From Vampirovibrionales bacterium (lineage in GTDB: Bacteria; Cyanobacteriota; Vampirovibrionia; Vampirovibrionales; Vampirovibrionaceae): 64,000 nucleotides of DNA. The position numbers and the translations under genes are program-made. The stretch is taken from NCBI GenBank assembly GCA_029262635.1, contig JAJCZA010000002.1:248001-312000 (forward strand), read 5' to 3'. Positions 16,092 to 48,482 of the stretch are shown here, piece after piece. The notes under the pieces were generated by a model, which was not told the origin of the DNA, did not search any database, and saw only the letters and a list, made by a program, of their open reading frames with translations. The stretch's first letter is position 1. Each line of letters opens with the position of its first letter.

Positions 16092-16197
16092 CCTAACCCG
16101 GCTTTGGGATTATAATGGTTGGGTAACGTTTTTTGATGGGCTGACGACAGACGGAAACAGATAAGCGTGTAACAGAAAAGGGTCAAGGCTTTTGAGC

Positions 16198-17835
16198 ATG
16201 TGGAGTGACCGATTTAATTGGAACCTTCTGGAAAAATACCAGAAAAAAGTGATAACGCTCTTAGGCATCCTGGTTTTAGTGGGTGCCGGGTTGCTTTATA
16301 TAAGCTGTATTACTCCTCACAGCCTGGGTGTTCTTTTTGACGACACAATTTATACGGTGTTGGCTAAGTCGTTAGCGAAAGGAGAGGGCTATAAGGCTTT
16401 ATACATGGTCACTCAGCCGACTCAAACGTTGTACCCCTTTTTATATCCTTTGATTCTTTCGGTTGGTTGGCTTGTTTTTCCTCATTTTCCTGAAAATATA
16501 GGTTTGTTTATGGGGATAACCGCTGCTTTTTCAGTGTTTTCACTGGCTTTGTTTTATGCTTACCTGCGGAAAAATAAACGATTTCCGATGGTGCTTTCTT
16601 TTTTCGTGATCACGTTCATTGCGGTGAACAGTTTTTATCTTCAATATTCGGTTTCCGTGATGACGGAGATACCATACCTTTTCTTTTCCCTGTTGTGCTT
16701 GTACTATGCGGAACGTCACCGGAAAGAAATGACCCTGAAAACTGTGATATTCTGTGTTTTACTTTCCGCGCTGGCGTTTCATGTGCGTATGGTTGGGGTG
16801 GCCTTGATTGGGGCGATCTTTCTATGGCTACTGGTGAGAAAGCAATGGAAATTTGCGTTGATTTATGTCGTTGGCACGGCGTGTTTAACGGTCATTCCAT
16901 GGGTCGGGTGGACGGTCCTGCACCGACCACCGGCGGTAACGGATTTAAATTATCCGCTGGTTTATGAGTATGGGAGTTATGGCAGCCATTTTTTGCTCAA
17001 CCTGTTTTCGGACAAGCTGTTTTTTCAGTCCCTCCTTGTGGATGGTGTTGGTGGGTTTTTCAGAGCTCTCAAACTCTATTTTTCCCCTTTTGGCGGTGGA
17101 TGGGCAACCTGGCTGGTGGCGGTTGTCTTCTGCCTGTCGCTTTTTTGGCAGGGCGTTCAGGGTGTTCGGAACAAAAACTACAGTCCGTCGGCCCTTTATC
17201 TTGTTTTGTATCTGATGGCTCTTATTTTGTGGCGTTACGATGATCAGATGCATCGGTTTATTGTTGTGATTCTGCCCTGGCTCTGGTATTACGCATTGAG
17301 GCCCTTTGCGTTTGTTCAGTGGGATTCTAAACTAAAAAAAGGGCTGTTAGCCTTGTGCTTGGTCTCTTTTATGGGTTTTGAAGTGGTGGTTGCCGCAGGG
17401 GGGTACTTGACGTTTAAATCCCTTCAGCAAGGTGCTATGGATCCGGTAGGGGTGCGAAAATGGTCCGAATACGAAGCCCTTTTCGAGTACCTGAAACGGG
17501 AAACACCTCAGGAGAGTGTCATTGGAACCCACTGGGGGCCGTTGTTTTATCTTCATACGGGCCGGTTGACGTTTAATACAACCTATTGGAGCTTGCAAAA
17601 GGAGCGAGGCGAATATGCCTCGACACCCGAATCCATTGCGAAGCTTTACAAAAGCGCTCGCCATTACGGAGTCGATTACTTTGTAGTGGAAGGCGATGCG
17701 GATACTCGGTATTCACAAGTTGACTTACCGGCAGCCCCGCATCAGATCGTAGAGACGTTTTCTGATGAGATGCAGCGGGTGTATAGTTCCCCTGAAGGGC
17801 AACTTCGATTGTATAAAGTGAAGAAACCAGAATGA
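16198..17835 (+). CDS. GT39-like membrane glycosyltransferase (first of tandem pair)
   Basis: Multi-spanning inner-membrane protein of 545 aa in the GT-C (ArnT/PMT-like, PMT_2) superfamily; such enzymes use polyprenyl-phosphate sugars and transfer them to lipid or protein on the periplasmic side. The first loop carries FDDTIYTVLAKSLAKGEGYK, with the acidic pair expected at the active site, followed by YPFLYPLILSV and at least eight hydrophobic segments. The C-terminal soluble part has GTHWGPLFYLHTGR. The ATG at 16198 has AAGG 9 bp before it; a TTG at 16192 is also open. The ATGA overlap with the next gene shows coupling. Acceptor is unknown. Confidence 0.85.
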   Translation: MWSDRFNWNLLEKYQKKVITLLGILVLVGAGLLYISCITPHSLGVLFDDTIYTVLAKSLAKGEGYKALYMVTQPTQTLYPFLYPLILSVGWLVFPHFPENIGLFMGITAAFSVFSLALFYAYLRKNKRFPMVLSFFVITFIAVNSFYLQYSVSVMTEIPYLFFSLLCLYYAERHRKEMTLKTVIFCVLLSALAFHVRMVGVALIGAIFLWLLVRKQWKFALIYVVGTACLTVIPWVGWTVLHRPPAVTDLNYPLVYEYGSYGSHFLLNLFSDKLFFQSLLVDGVGGFFRALKLYFSPFGGGWATWLVAVVFCLSLFWQGVQGVRNKNYSPSALYLVLYLMALILWRYDDQMHRFIVVILPWLWYYALRPFAFVQWDSKLKKGLLALCLVSFMGFEVVVAAGGYLTFKSLQQGAMDPVGVRKWSEYEALFEYLKRETPQESVIGTHWGPLFYLHTGRLTFNTTYWSLQKERGEYASTPESIAKLYKSARHYGVDYFVVEGDADTRYSQVDLPAAPHQIVETFSDEMQRVYSSPEGQLRLYKVKKPE

Positions 17836-19502
17836 GCAAGATGTTTTTGGGGCTTAAAAAAACACGAAACCGGCAATTCTTTATCGGTGGTGTCGGGATG
17901 ATTCTGCTGCTTGTGGCGGGCGGGGTTTATTGGTCTTTTGTTGACCCCTCTCGATTAGGTTTTTTCTACGATGATGCTATTTATATGGTTTTAGGAAAAT
18001 CAATTGCCGAAGGCCAAGGCTATAAAGCCCTTTATATTATGACAGAGCCTACAGAACTCCTTTATTTTCCGTTGCTTCCCCTCTTCTTATCGGCGGCTTG
18101 GAAAATCTGGCCTGCTTTTCCAGATAATATTCCTTACTTTACAGGCGTGATTGTTGCTTTTTCTTTAGCCTCGTTGGTGTGTTGTTATTATTATTTACGA
18201 CAATGTAAAAAGGTTCCCCTTTGGGGGGCTTCTTTAATCCTTGCGTTAACCGCCTTTAATTATTTTTATATGACCTATTCGTCTGCATTGATGTCAGAAA
18301 TGCCTTATCTTTTCTTTTCTCTGTTGGCACTTTACACGGCGGAACAGGCTTTAAAGAGAGAAGCCGGGGGGTCTCGGTTGTTTCTTTTAACGCTTCTGTT
18401 CTCTGTACTGGCTTTTTATACAAGAGCCGTGGGTGTTACTTTAATAGGCGCTATTTTTATGGGTTTTTTAGCGAGAAAACAATGGAAACAAGCTTTTCTT
18501 TATGGAGGCCTTTCATTCTGCTTATCGGTATTGCCGTGGCTTTTTTGGACAATGGCTCACACGCCCTCTTTGGTAGACGATTTAAACTATCCGCTGGTTC
18601 ATCAATATGCGAGTTATAGCGACTTTCTTGTTCGGGATTTGCTGACGGAAGGGTCCTTTTGGACGTCTTTACTCCAAGATGGGTTTGGCGGTTTTTTTAA
18701 TGCCCTTAAGCTTTATGTCTGGCCCTGGGGTGGATTATCAGCCGTTTGGTTCGTTGGGCTTGGCTTGGGGGGCCTCTTTTTTACGCAGGCGTTGCCGTCG
18801 TTTCGGGTCAATCGGGTTAATGGGGCAAAAGCGTGTAGTCCTTCTGTTTTTTATCTCTGTTTTTATGTGGGAGCGATTATTCTTTGGCGCTATGAGGCCC
18901 ATATGGTACGCTTCTTGGTGGTTATCCTTCCTTTGATTTGGTATTACGCCTTGAATCCTTTTATAGCGATTGTGGATAATGGCGATTTTAAGCGCTTAAA
19001 AACAAAAATAGTTGTGAGTGGTCTCGTCCTTTTTTGTTTGTTTCAAAGTTTCTTTATAACAGGCGGCTATTTAACGTTCAAATCGCGAGAAGGTAAGGAC
19101 CATAACCTTGAAGGGCAAGAGAAGCTTGCTGAACGGCAGGCTCTGCTTGATTATATTAAAACGAGTTTGCCTGAGGAGGAAGTCATTGGTACCCCCTGGA
19201 GCCCTTTGTTTTATCTTTACACAGGACACCCAACGTACAATACAGGTTATTGGAGCTTGAAGCGGGAAAAGGGTGAGTTTTCCTGTTCTCCAGAAGCTAT
19301 CGATGCTCTTTTCAGGAGTATGGAGCATTATGGGGTGCGTTATTTTGCTTTTGAGCCTTCCATGAGAACAGATCAGTCGCTCACGCTTCGGGAGAAAGTG
19401 CCTTTATTGCTTTTGGAAATGTTTCCCAGGCACTTCACACGGATTTACACTTCGCCTCAGGGTCAAAATGAGCTGTATCAGATTGACTATCGTATCGAGT
19501 AG
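17832..19502 (+). CDS. GT39-like membrane glycosyltransferase (second of tandem pair)
   Basis: 556-aa paralogue of the upstream gene: the same FYDDAIYMVLGKSIAEGQGYKALYI loop, the same order of membrane segments, and the same C-terminal SPLFYLYTGHPTYNTGYW block, about half identical by eye. Starts four bases inside the previous gene (ATGA). The pair looks like a recent-to-ancient tandem duplication kept for related but separate acceptors or donors. No nearby flippase or lipid-carrier gene is present. It ends 90 bp before tRNA-Ser. Confidence 0.85.
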   Translation: MSKMFLGLKKTRNRQFFIGGVGMILLLVAGGVYWSFVDPSRLGFFYDDAIYMVLGKSIAEGQGYKALYIMTEPTELLYFPLLPLFLSAAWKIWPAFPDNIPYFTGVIVAFSLASLVCCYYYLRQCKKVPLWGASLILALTAFNYFYMTYSSALMSEMPYLFFSLLALYTAEQALKREAGGSRLFLLTLLFSVLAFYTRAVGVTLIGAIFMGFLARKQWKQAFLYGGLSFCLSVLPWLFWTMAHTPSLVDDLNYPLVHQYASYSDFLVRDLLTEGSFWTSLLQDGFGGFFNALKLYVWPWGGLSAVWFVGLGLGGLFFTQALPSFRVNRVNGAKACSPSVFYLCFYVGAIILWRYEAHMVRFLVVILPLIWYYALNPFIAIVDNGDFKRLKTKIVVSGLVLFCLFQSFFITGGYLTFKSREGKDHNLEGQEKLAERQALLDYIKTSLPEEEVIGTPWSPLFYLYTGHPTYNTGYWSLKREKGEFSCSPEAIDALFRSMEHYGVRYFAFEPSMRTDQSLTLREKVPLLLLEMFPRHFTRIYTSPQGQNELYQIDYRIE

Positions 19503-19592: not shown

Positions 19593-19681
19593 GGAGAGGT
19601 GGCCGAGTGGCTGAAGGCGGCTCCCTGCTAAGGAGTTATGGGGTTTACGCTCCATCGTGGGTTCGAATCCCACCCTCTCTG
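19593..19681 (+). tRNA. tRNA-Ser(GCU)
   Basis: Class II tRNA, 89 nt. GGAGAGG acceptor, TGGCCGAGTGG D arm, anticodon loop with GCT (CTCCC TGCTAAG GAG), a long variable arm, GTTCGAATC T loop, and CCTCTCT acceptor 3' strand. CCA not encoded. Its 3' end is repeated at 21213-21226. Confidence 0.96.
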
Positions 19682-19686
19682 AGTTT
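19673..19686 (+). repeat. Left direct repeat (candidate attL) at tRNA-Ser 3' end
   Basis: CCCTCTCTGAGTTT; the first 9 bases are the tRNA 3' end. An identical 14-mer occurs at 21213-21226. Confidence 0.6.
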
Positions 19687-19742
19687 CCGTGTGTTAATTG
19701 GTGAGGGGCTTTTTGTTGCCCTTAATTAAATTCTATGCAAAT

Positions 19743-19776
19743 ATAAAAAAGCGCCGGGAGGCTAGTCCCGACGCTT
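19743..19776 (-). terminator. Terminator of the 37-aa protein gene
   Basis: Minus-strand stem AAGCGTCGGGA/TCCCGGCGCTT, with one mismatch, followed by TTTTTATAT. It supports the short minus-strand gene at 19795-19908 as real. Confidence 0.75.
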
Positions 19777-19794
19777 CAAAAGGTTGTTACTTAA

Positions 19795-19908
19795 CTAGCA
19801 ACGTCCTTTTTTAGGTGTCGACCGTTTATGTGGTTTAACTGGGACGGTCTTAGGTCCCGGCTTTTTTTCAGTCGGGACTTTTCGTGTTTTACACGGTTTC
19901 TTTGCCAT
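19795..19908 (-). CDS. Very small, Lys/Pro-rich basic protein (37 aa)
   Basis: Unrecognised. About 17 of 37 residues are Lys or Arg, with six or so prolines (KKPGPKTVPVKPHKR), one Cys near the start and one at the end. The open frame is longer, but the ATG at 19908 follows GAGAGAGCAAT and gives MAKKPCKTRK. A strong terminator follows 20 bp after the stop. Highly basic Pro-rich micro-proteins may bind nucleic acid or be antimicrobial-like; nothing in the sequence decides. Confidence 0.55.
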   Translation of the reverse strand: MAKKPCKTRKVPTEKKPGPKTVPVKPHKRSTPKKGRC

Positions 19909-20293
19909 TATTGCTCTCTCTTTCTCCTTGAAATTAACAATACAGACTCTCGCATAGTTCAAAGTTGTATGCAGAGTTTTGAGAGTATATAGAGGGGTCG
20001 GCGGCGAGGAAAACCTCGCCACCCTTAAAGCTACCGTTTTTTAACGATTAACGGAAAAGCTTTCAACCCTTTTTGCCAAGCGTACAAGCGCTTACCATTT
20101 TTCAACGTTATAAACGCTGAAAAGATAAGCTTGTAGCCTGGCGGAACGACTTCATATTTTGACATGATTCGCCCCCTTTTATTCCGTCCAGTAGCAATAC
20201 CATTTCCCGTCTGCTAGAATATGAATGGCTATTCATTTTTCTTAAACGGAAAATGGTCTTCCAAGTGTGGACATACTTCACTTTGGAAGAAAT

Positions 20294-20326
20294 AAAGGCA
20301 GGACTAGCGCAAACTAGCCTGCCTTT
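20294..20326 (-). terminator. Terminator of the AbrB-like gene
   Basis: Minus-strand stem AAAGGCAGG-CTAG/CTAG-(A)-CCTGCCTTT with a 6-nt loop followed by ATTTCTT. It lies 22 bp past the stop of the AbrB-like gene and inside a spurious overlapping frame. Confidence 0.7.
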
Positions 20327-20348
20327 AAGCTTTTTAAAGTCTATTTTG

Positions 20349-20537
20349 CTATGTTGCTCCAAGATTACATCCTTTAAATATGATTCGTTCGATGGGTCTG
20401 ATTAAAATACTTCCATCATCATTTAGATCTGTAGCGACAAAGTCTCCATTTTTTAAGGCTAAGGCCTCTCTAATAAATTTGGGAAGCGTAACTTGACCAT
20501 GCTTGTTTATTTTTTGAAGTTCAGAAGTATTTGTCAT
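20349..20537 (-). CDS. AbrB/SpoVT (MazE-like) DNA-binding domain protein
   Basis: 62-aa protein. Residues about 8-50 form the swapped-hairpin AbrB fold: KINKHGQVTLPKFIREALALKNGDFVATDLNDD, the same pattern as MazE/VapB-type antitoxins and transition-state regulators. The C-terminal 12 residues are short, and there is no adjacent MazF or PIN toxin gene; the ATG at 20537 has AGGAGAAAC upstream. It may be an orphan antitoxin or an autonomous regulator of the neighbouring divergent nuclease gene, which starts 140 bp away. Confidence 0.8.
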   Translation of the reverse strand: MTNTSELQKINKHGQVTLPKFIREALALKNGDFVATDLNDDGSILIRPIERIIFKGCNLGAT

Positions 20538-20674
20538 ACATGTTTCTCCTGTCCGACTTTCTTAAAAAAATGGAGTGGATTTCCACCACAAATATGGTAT
20601 CAAAAGATCGTCCATCCGGAGTAGATAATAAGTAGATTAGCAAGATATTGTTACAATTAATAATCAAATGGATC

Positions 20675-21121
20675 ATGAAATATCTGATAATATTATTTTT
20701 TTTAATGTTAGCGACCTGTGCTTCTTTACTACTCCCCGCCCACCCCTCCGAGCGGGTCAAACGCATTATTGACGGCGACACCGTGGTAACGACCCGCTTT
20801 GGCAAGATTCGGCTTTACGGAATGGATGCCCCAGAGAAACGGCAACCCCTCGGCCCAGCGGCGACAGAACACCTGAGAAAGCTTATTGGCGACGAGCGGG
20901 TGGAGTGCATCCGCATCGGGAGCGCATTCACCTATAACTGCCGGGTTTGCATCCTCGTGATAGAAAGCGGCGTGTCGCTCAACCGGGAGATGGTGAAGGC
21001 CGGTTACGCATACGACGAGCCCCGATACTCGAAGGGATTCTATAAGCAAACGGAAACCGAGGCTCATGAAGCCAGTTTAGGCGTGTTGGCCAGCCCAGAC
21101 AGCGTTAAGCCGTGGGTTTGA
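20675..21121 (+). CDS. Secreted thermonuclease-like (SNase) protein
   Basis: 148-aa nuclease of the staphylococcal nuclease (OB-fold) superfamily: RIIDGDTVVTTRFGKIRLYGMDAPE holds the Ca-ligand Asp and the catalytic Arg/Glu pair (IRLYG.DAPE); later YNCRVCILV supplies the second Arg and NREMVKAGYAY the conserved helix. The N terminus (MKYLIILFFLMLATCASLL) is a signal peptide or lipoprotein-like anchor, so the enzyme probably acts outside the cytoplasm. The ATG at 20675 is chosen over a TTG at 20648. The N-terminal coding bases are AT-rich while the catalytic part is clearly GC-rich (near 60%), a sharp change within one gene. Confidence 0.85.
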   Translation: MKYLIILFFLMLATCASLLLPAHPSERVKRIIDGDTVVTTRFGKIRLYGMDAPEKRQPLGPAATEHLRKLIGDERVECIRIGSAFTYNCRVCILVIESGVSLNREMVKAGYAYDEPRYSKGFYKQTETEAHEASLGVLASPDSVKPWV

Positions 21122-21212
21122 CGGAAGCGTTAACTTAAAATCAAGCAATACCAATATAGAGAGTTTCAATTTCTTTTTGCCCATTCATTAGAAAAGTTCA
21201 AAGTGTGTCCCT

Positions 21213-21226
21213 CCCTCTCTGAGTTT
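21213..21226 (+). repeat. Right direct repeat (candidate attR)
   Basis: CCCTCTCTGAGTTT, identical to 19673-19686 at the tRNA-Ser 3' end, about 1.54 kb away. Confidence 0.6.
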
Positions 21227-21683: not shown

Positions 21684-21884
21684 TTATCGAACAAACGGGT
21701 ACTGCTTGTTGAGGAACTGGCGGGTTTCTTTATTGTCTGTTTGCATAAGCCACTCAAAGAGTTCGGTTTGGTGTTTTTGCATTTGAGCATATTCTTCCAT
21801 ACCGGCTTGAAACGGATTGGATGTTGCCGCCTGCTTCAGTGTCTTTGTGCTTTTGTGCTTCTTTTGTGGATTGGCCATTGTCAT
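21684..21884 (-). CDS. Small basic hypothetical protein (64-66 aa)
   Basis: Unrecognised. ATGs at 21884 and 21878 are both possible; GAGAGAGCAAT lies just upstream. The N-terminal 20 residues are Lys-rich (NPQKKHKSTKTLK), and the rest is a helical, Gln/Glu-rich segment with FEWLMQ and FLNKQYPF. The upstream leader closely matches that of the 37-aa gene at 19795-19908 (same GAGAGAGCAAT then ATGGC). Confidence 0.5.
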   Translation of the reverse strand: MTMANPQKKHKSTKTLKQAATSNPFQAGMEEYAQMQKHQTELFEWLMQTDNKETRQFLNKQYPFVR

Positions 21885-22020: not shown

Positions 22021-23121
22021 TTAAGCGGGCTGTTTCGGGGTCAGAAGAATCTTAATGGCTTGACCAGCTTCAACCGTTTCAAGGGCTTCAGGCACTTGAG
22101 ACAGGGGGAGTTGCTTGGAAATAAGTGGGCGCGGATCGATTTTTCCCTCGCAAATCAAGGTCAATGCTTTACGAAAATATTCCGGGGTGTGGTGAAATGG
22201 GCTAATGAGGGTAATTTCATCGTAATGAAGTCGCCGTGTGTCGATATTGATAGAACTGCCGGAAGGGCATCCGCCAAACAAGTTGACCAACCCACCTCGG
22301 CGAGCGAGTCCAATGGCTTTTTCCCAGACTTCAGGAAGACCAACCGCTTCAATAACAATGTCAAAGCCTTTGCCTTGGGGAGTGTAGCATGCTTTAATTT
22401 GCTCCACGTCAAAACAGTCACGTAGATTCACCAGTGAGTCGGCTTTGCCAAAGTCTTTTGCCATGGCCATTTTTAGTGGGTTCCGTGCCATGGCGGTAAC
22501 GTGTGCGCCTTTGAGTTTGGCAAGACGAACTAGAAGCTGACCAATCGAACCTAAGCCGATTATAGCAACGTGATCACCGGGTGAAACGCCTGAAAGATCA
22601 ATGCCCCGAAGAGAAACGGCCAGAGGCTCTGCAAAGGCGGCGGCTTCAAAAGAGACATCTTCGGGCAGTTTGTGGGTGTTGTGCGCTGTGATTTGAGCGG
22701 GGATTCTTAAATAATCAGCGTAAGAGCCATTCAGAAGGTCAAGGTGTTCGCAAAGGTTATGGTTTCCTTTATGGCAAAAGTCACAATCGTAACAAGGTGC
22801 TGAATTAGCGGCGACCACCCTGTTGCCGGGCTTGAATTGGGTGACGTTACTTCCGACACGAACCACAATGCCGGAAAATTCGTGGCCAAACGGGGAGGGG
22901 AAACTCTTAAGCAAAACCGGATGTCCTCGTCGATAGCATTTTAGGTCGGTTCCGCAGGTCAGGGTGCTTTCAATTTTAACGAGCAGTTCGTCAGATGTTA
23001 TTTTAGGAACCGGAACGGTTTCGTACCGGACATCACCCGGTTTATAAAAAAGGGCGGCCTCCATGGTCTCTGGAACATCAGAGATAGAAGTAGGGTGGGG
23101 TGTCAGAGAAGTAATGCTCAT
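22021..23121 (-). CDS. Zinc-dependent MDR dehydrogenase (threonine/sorbitol dehydrogenase-like)
   Basis: 366-aa medium-chain dehydrogenase/reductase. Catalytic zinc ligands appear in TLTCGTDLKCY and GHEFSG; the structural zinc cluster is CYDCDFCHKGNHNLC. The Rossmann motif GLGSIGQLLVRLAKLKG is present. A sugar-alcohol or threonine-type oxidoreductase is likely, substrate unknown. Starts four bases inside the preceding MDR gene (ATGA), so the pair is translationally coupled. The two proteins share the same domain order and are likely old paralogues. Confidence 0.88.
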   Translation of the reverse strand: MSITSLTPHPTSISDVPETMEAALFYKPGDVRYETVPVPKITSDELLVKIESTLTCGTDLKCYRRGHPVLLKSFPSPFGHEFSGIVVRVGSNVTQFKPGNRVVAANSAPCYDCDFCHKGNHNLCEHLDLLNGSYADYLRIPAQITAHNTHKLPEDVSFEAAAFAEPLAVSLRGIDLSGVSPGDHVAIIGLGSIGQLLVRLAKLKGAHVTAMARNPLKMAMAKDFGKADSLVNLRDCFDVEQIKACYTPQGKGFDIVIEAVGLPEVWEKAIGLARRGGLVNLFGGCPSGSSINIDTRRLHYDEITLISPFHHTPEYFRKALTLICEGKIDPRPLISKQLPLSQVPEALETVEAGQAIKILLTPKQPA

Positions 23122-47320: not shown

Positions 47321-47395
47321 AACGGGATAGCACCTCTTTGATTTTACGGGATCTTCTTTTTGGCGTTGAGACATATTATAACGTCAATTGTCCTC

Positions 47396-47401
47396 TATAA
47401 T
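47396..47401 (+). promoter_or_regulatory. -10 box of xerC/D
   Basis: TATAAT, no convincing -35. Transcription would start close to 47408, so the ATG at 47409 would be at or near the mRNA 5' end (leaderless). Confidence 0.45.
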
Positions 47402-47408
47402 AAAGGTT

Positions 47409-48482
47409 ATGGATAGAGAATGGAATTTTGACGCCCATTTGGCTTCATTCCATGAAGGCGCCGAGGCCTTTGTGGATTATATTACCCTGACCCGAAATTT
47501 GTCTATCCATACGATTCGGGCTTATGGTCGGGATCTGGCCGAATTCCTCGAATGGCTGAGTGAATGGGTGACCCTTCAATCGTACGAAGAAGAGGGAACA
47601 ATGACAAATGGCTTTTTATCAGGGCGAGAAGCCGAAATGTTTCGGGACATTCCCGGTCAATTTATGGTTTATCTTACCACCCGAAAGGTTGCTAAAAGTA
47701 CTGTGGCCCGAAAAACATCGATGTTGCGAACCTTTTTTAAATTTCTGATTAAAGAGCGTTATTTTAAGAGTGAACAGCTCCCCATTCGTTTTCAAGGGCC
47801 TCGCCTCCAAAAGAATTTGCCTTACTTTCTTTCGGAAGATGAAGTGACCCAATTGCTTAGCACCCTTGAGCATATGCCGGACTCTCCTTTAAATCGACGT
47901 AATCAAGCCATTATTGAGCTTCTTTTTTCCTCTGGTGTTCGGGTGAGTGAACTGACGAACCTGAACTTTGAGGATATTCAGTGGGAAGAGGGAGAACTGC
48001 ATGTTCGGGGCAAAGGGGGCCGTGAGCGTGTTAGTTTTATGAGCCCGAAAGCCCTTGTCTTTCTGAAAAATTACAAGAACCAATGGCCTGAGCTTCATTG
48101 GCAAGAGAGGAAACAAGAAAAGCCGAAGCCGACGGCCAAAAGTCCGGTGTTTTTAAACTATAAAGGGGAACGGATAACCCCTCGTAGTGTTGCCCGTATG
48201 CTTCTTGATGTTGCGGAAGAAGCCGGACTGGAAAAGAAGTTATACCCTCACCTGTTTCGTCATACCTTCGCTACTCACCTTCTGAACCATGGCATTGACC
48301 TTCGGGTTGTTCAGGAACTGTTAGGCCACGTGAGTATTCGAAGCACACAGATATACACCCATGTCACCACGGAGCGTTTAAGGAAAGCCTACCTGGCCGC
48401 TCATCCACGTGCTATCCCTTCCCGGCGAATTTCTGAAACTCTTTCTGAAGCCCTTCAAGAACAAAAGGATAACTCTGCATAA
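47409..48482 (+). CDS. xerC: Tyrosine recombinase XerC/XerD
   Basis: 357 aa from the ATG at 47409 (open frame from 47388 TTG). The N-terminal SAM-like core domain has a ~60-aa insertion-like stretch (residues 50-70, with SYEEEGTMTNGFLSGREAEMF). C-terminal catalytic residues: Arg in SSGVRVSELTNL, the Lys of GKGGRERV, HLFRHTFATHLL (His/Arg), GHVSIRSTQIYTHV (His/Tyr). XerC/D act at dif to resolve chromosome dimers; which of the two this is cannot be told. The long N-terminal insert is unusual. Coupled to the next gene (TAATG). Confidence 0.92.
   Translation: MDREWNFDAHLASFHEGAEAFVDYITLTRNLSIHTIRAYGRDLAEFLEWLSEWVTLQSYEEEGTMTNGFLSGREAEMFRDIPGQFMVYLTTRKVAKSTVARKTSMLRTFFKFLIKERYFKSEQLPIRFQGPRLQKNLPYFLSEDEVTQLLSTLEHMPDSPLNRRNQAIIELLFSSGVRVSELTNLNFEDIQWEEGELHVRGKGGRERVSFMSPKALVFLKNYKNQWPELHWQERKQEKPKPTAKSPVFLNYKGERITPRSVARMLLDVAEEAGLEKKLYPHLFRHTFATHLLNHGIDLRVVQELLGHVSIRSTQIYTHVTTERLRKAYLAAHPRAIPSRRISETLSEALQEQKDNSA

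Follow-up and report, generated by a model that had tools for sequence, protein, structure and literature searches.

The window, the whole stretch of 64,000 nucleotides analysed here, carries a tRNA-Ser(GCU) gene whose 3' end recurs downstream as a direct repeat (Table 1). The exact 14-bp repeat, CCCTCTCTGAGTTT, lies at positions 19673-19686 and 21213-21226, as an earlier sequence-only reading of this DNA had described, and is longer than claimed there, extending to 19 nt with one mismatch (TCCC[A/T]CCCTCTCTGAGTTT, 18/19 identical). The left copy takes in a portion of the T arm together with the 3' acceptor strand and runs 5 nt past the tRNA gene; the single mismatch falls in the T arm, where the tRNA copy reads A and the right copy T. 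Across all 2.99 Mb of the genome the 19-nt pattern occurs in these two copies only, with 0 matches to its reversed control. Under an order-1 Markov model, and counting both strands of the 2.33-kb gap, the chance expectation is 1.7e-5 for the exact 14-mer and 8e-7 for the 19-mer with at most one mismatch. The tRNA 3' end is thus repeated directly at the segment's far border and nowhere else in the genome, the mark of integration at a tRNA gene.

Table 1. Features of the tRNA-Ser(GCU) locus (positions in the window) and of the related prophage elsewhere in the genome
Feature	Position	Strand	Basis or remark
tRNA-Ser(GCU), insertion target	19593..19681	+	ARAGORN; Rfam RF00005, 57.6 bits
Left att-like repeat (attL) TCCCACCCTCTCTGAGTTT, overlapping the tRNA 3' end	19668..19686	+	Repeat search, Markov expectation
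Rho-independent terminator-like hairpin 3' of the 37-aa ORF	19748..19777	-	12-bp stem and T run
37-aa Lys/Pro-rich basic ORF, no family	19795..19908	-	ORF list, family search
44-aa ORF, homolog of the 54-aa protein of the tRNA-Pro prophage	20031..20165	-	tblastn E 7e-4; Smith-Waterman
AbrB/MazE-type DNA-binding protein, 62 aa	20349..20537	-	PF04014, E 4e-8
SNase-type (thermonuclease) protein, N-terminal signal-like segment	20675..21121	+	PF00565
Right att-like repeat (attR) TCCCTCCCTCTCTGAGTTT	21208..21226	+	Repeat search, Markov expectation
66-aa ORF, chromosomal backbone	21684..21884	-	Similar 60-77-aa ORFs next to the alcohol dehydrogenase gene in relatives
Alcohol dehydrogenase, right flanking backbone gene	22021..23121	-	Conserved in relatives
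tRNA-Pro(TGG) prophage, Mu-type baseplate genes, 45-nt att repeat	L076:3426-16001, L098, L099, L166:1-3404		Contigs C7 and C23 (split)

Between the repeats lie (i) the 37-aa basic ORF, (ii) the 44-aa ORF, (iii) the MazE/AbrB-type protein, and (iv) the divergently oriented SNase-type nuclease. The first, third and fourth had been named in the sequence-only reading and are all present, the nuclease and the AbrB-type protein with their Pfam families and the 37-aa ORF with none, and the 44-aa ORF was missing from that list. The C-terminal part of a 54-aa protein from a prophage at tRNA-Pro in the same genome aligns with the 44-aa ORF (Smith-Waterman score 60, shuffled maximum 44; 42% over 31 residues by tblastn), and the N-terminus of the same protein is weakly resembled by the 37-aa ORF, at a shuffling p of ~0.001 that falls short of proof. 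Among the 38 and 57 relatives searched, the 37-aa and 44-aa ORFs had only weak matches at chance level. The description of the enclosed genes as AT-rich holds in part: the island, at 43% GC, lies below the window (47%), but the nuclease gene reaches 54% and the flanking intergenic backbone, at 39%, is more AT-rich than the island itself.

Clear PHROGs matches in the segment are confined to the nuclease and the AbrB-like protein, and the same search finds no phage structural or replication gene there. The segment likewise contains no conjugation gene and, in the family and PHROGs searches, none of the core genes of phage satellites. The earlier statement that no integrase is present is correct, in that no such ORF and no PF00589 match occurs between the repeats, all 13 matches to this family in the genome lying elsewhere; the unit therefore lacks the integrase of its own by which an autonomous integrative element would be recognized. 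The tyrosine recombinase gene at 47382-48479 was considered as the island integrase and rejected, being XerC/XerD-like and 26 kb away past conserved backbone genes. Further tyrosine recombinase genes (L067, L069, L071, L072) stand beside two tRNA-Glu copies and a tmRNA gene, and several integration targets are in use in this genome. The suggestion of a defence or colicin-like cargo finds no footing: neither a known defence protein nor a toxin paired with an immunity gene was found in the segment, no immunity or colicin-type gene was seen in it, and the one PADLOC candidate (E 5e-7) is matched solely through the common nuclease domain, the candidate protein having two domains.

The gene order around the locus was compared with that of six relatives (G004-G009) of the same family and of genera other than that of the window, as far as the stretches fetched for each relative reach. 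The order bioB, tRNA-Lys, purA, tRNA-Ser, two alcohol dehydrogenase genes, plsX and fabH is common to the window and all six, in which the gap from the tRNA to the alcohol dehydrogenase gene measures 0.80-1.36 kb, contains neither SNase nor AbrB genes and shows the tRNA 3' end just once. Five of the six (G004, G006-G009) carry a gene for a membrane protein of 119-120 aa inside this gap; G005 is without it. Subtraction of the 1,540-bp repeat-to-repeat unit from the ~2.34-kb gap of the window leaves 0.80 kb, the length of the G005 gap, and the flanks joined after removal of the unit align with G005, including a common backbone hairpin block (GTGACTTT..TAGAGC..GCTCTAC) found to the right of attR at ~21.46-21.55 kb. 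Because the repeat is unique, the relatives preserve the same order without the segment or a second repeat, and the 0.80-kb gaps match, the repeat-bounded unit is an insertion into an otherwise conserved backbone at tRNA-Ser(GCU). The comparison with related genomes that had been proposed as a check of the att-like repeats therefore comes out in favour of that reading, since the relatives share the flanks, lack the insert and have the tRNA 3' end only once. Those extra matches to the tRNA-Ser 3' end in relatives that were retrieved and inspected proved to lie in other serine tRNA genes, and a 5'-end match in the relative G003 lies in a tRNA cluster; neither was retained as an att-like copy. 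The 66-aa ORF was also rejected as cargo, since counterparts of 60-77 aa precede the alcohol dehydrogenase gene in G004-G009 and assign it to the backbone; these small proteins end in Arg in every family member looked at. Between purA and tRNA-Ser, positions 16192-19502 hold a tandem pair of related membrane proteins with weak matches to the LIC_10190 family. With purA only ~0.3 kb from tRNA-Ser in the relatives, this region amounts to a second lineage-specific insertion, on the opposite side of the tRNA from the first.

The closest counterpart of the island content resides in the same genome, in the prophage inserted at tRNA-Pro(TGG), the last 45 nt of whose tRNA region recur on contig C23, where no tRNA stands; this prophage is an internal example of att duplication of a tRNA 3' end. 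Its block on contig C7, with SNase (-), AbrB (+) and small gene (+), is collinear with that of the island, the small gene encoding the 54-aa protein in the prophage and the 44-aa ORF in the island, with 83% DNA identity over 762 bp and 97% identical AbrB proteins. The DNA similarity stops inside the segment, not at the repeats. The two settings differ in target tRNA and att core, and the tRNA-Pro element is a full phage, with Mu gp45-like and baseplate J proteins, a terminase, and its own integrase and a ParE/HTH-like pair adjoining the block; a third AbrB homolog is located near the terminase gene. A serine recombinase gene abuts the right att copy of this prophage. No other genome in a sample of 289 from the class has the island or the SNase-AbrB block, AbrB homologs were found neither in viral contigs nor in phages, and SNase homologs are lacking in phage records and reach only 27-37% identity in viral contigs, many distant relatives occurring on plasmids. 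Five SNase homologs of G007 and G009 (L120, L121, L122, L124, L125) share their fetched stretch with a tyrosine recombinase gene at a distance of about 3-8 kb, a hint that mobile elements of this family often carry SNase genes.

The two copies of the block also disclose how the cargo has changed. In an alignment of 31 homologs and the S. aureus nuclease, the island nuclease retains the equivalents of D21, R35, D40 and E43 and displays (i) Cys at the position of R87, the catalytic Arg of staphylococcal nuclease, where 31 of the 32 other sequences that cover this position have Arg, (ii) Leu at a near-invariant Trp (Trp in 30/31), and (iii) no C-terminal tail, all three changes being confined to the island copy. 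The set of catalytic residues of an active staphylococcal-type nuclease (Asp, Arg, Asp, Glu and a second Arg) is thus incomplete. The prophage nuclease keeps the Arg, the Trp and the tail, and matches solved thermonucleases by sequence, a similarity that the island copy no longer shows at the same threshold. Given these losses, set against a prophage copy that has kept all three features, the island nuclease is, judging from its sequence, probably inactive. The AbrB gene has stayed conserved while the nuclease decayed. Comparison of island and prophage copies yields a dN/dS of 0.04 for AbrB and 0.14 for SNase (core 0.06) at a synonymous divergence of 0.5-1.0; the low ratios indicate that selection acted on both genes during most of the time since the copies separated, and at such divergence there is room only for a recent decay or for one limited to the nuclease.

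Taken together, the unit is likely an integrase-less, att-flanked prophage remnant at tRNA-Ser(GCU) that functions like a CIME. Of the three readings offered from the sequence alone, the remnant is the best supported, by the prophage-collinear block, the missing integrase and the nuclease without its catalytic Arg. A temperate relative of the tRNA-Pro prophage, or another integrative element with the same accessory block, would have recombined into the 3' end of tRNA-Ser(GCU) through a tyrosine recombinase, an event that restored the tRNA; an internal deletion would then have taken out the integrase and almost every phage gene, so that attL, the accessory block (SNase, the divergent AbrB-like gene and the small basic proteins) and attR stayed behind. 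Such a remnant would be immobile by itself and movable only by a recombinase of the same att specificity, and the AbrB-like protein it encodes may continue to bind the promoter region of its own gene as well as the near-identical one in the resident prophage. Genes homologous to those of a phage are present in the same order (SNase, AbrB, small gene) and, since no phage structural or replication gene is left, the argument for a phage origin is carried by the collinear block only.

The nearly intact att copies and the compactness of the 1.54-kb unit, together with a genome in which several of the PF00589 matches lie beside tRNA or tmRNA genes, would also suit a functional helper-dependent mini-element, moved in trans by a tRNA-Ser-specific integrase of a co-resident phage or ICE. 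We regard this as unlikely: the unit is a single copy with no other host in the class sample, its att core has no further copy in the genome, the only other copy of the block sits inside a full prophage with a different target, the cargo nuclease is decayed, and no replication, packaging, excisionase or phage-hijacking gene is present, so that the helper-dependent satellite once proposed gains no positive support.

Accessory cassettes such as the SNase-AbrB block can move between types of element, and conjugative plasmids commonly carry genes of the SNase family (thousands of records); with no phage gene in the island beyond the accessory block, the unit could instead descend from a non-phage integrative element (ICE, IME or genomic island) that acquired the same cassette. 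This origin appears quite improbable, given that by far the closest copy, with 83% DNA identity and the same order including the small gene, belongs to a prophage, in which AbrB homologs occur twice. Very unlikely, in our estimate, is a minimal, trans-mobilised element of 1.5 kb at tRNA-Ser that owes its retention to a regulatory role towards a related phage, its conserved AbrB-like protein acting on the matching operator in the resident tRNA-Pro prophage. Finally, a chance repeat, with the block arriving by recombination with the prophage region or as an ancestral gene lost in relatives, would accommodate the end of the DNA similarity within the segment, but it is scarcely credible at a probability of ~1e-6 and when removal of the exact repeat-bounded unit restores both the G005 gap length and the register of the backbone block.

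Compared with known systems, the remnant belongs to a familiar kind that bacteria commonly carry, and the general understanding is unchanged by this island. Phage-inducible satellites (PICI, PLE and similar) are small, att-flanked and devoid of structural genes, as the island is, but they carry integrase, replication and helper-interference genes that the island lacks. In cryptic prophage remnants at tRNA genes, the tRNA 3' end is duplicated as attL/attR and phage accessory genes are left; the island is alike in both respects, differing in its very short length (1.5 kb) and in retaining nothing structural. CIMEs, classically of 1.2-13 kb and described in Streptococcus, are decayed elements that keep their att sites and not their recombination genes; by definition they descend from ICEs or IMEs, and a survey found them in tandem with such elements (PMC7563491). 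The island resembles them as an att-flanked deletion remnant with a small cargo that kept its att sites and lost the integrase, and departs from them in that its nearest relative is a prophage and no element stands in tandem. The mobile elements of this lineage seem to have received little study, and the island offers a clean example of the way a tRNA-integrated phage may be reduced to its att sites and accessory genes, with an intact sister block in the same genome that allows decay, in the nuclease, and retention, in AbrB, to be compared side by side.
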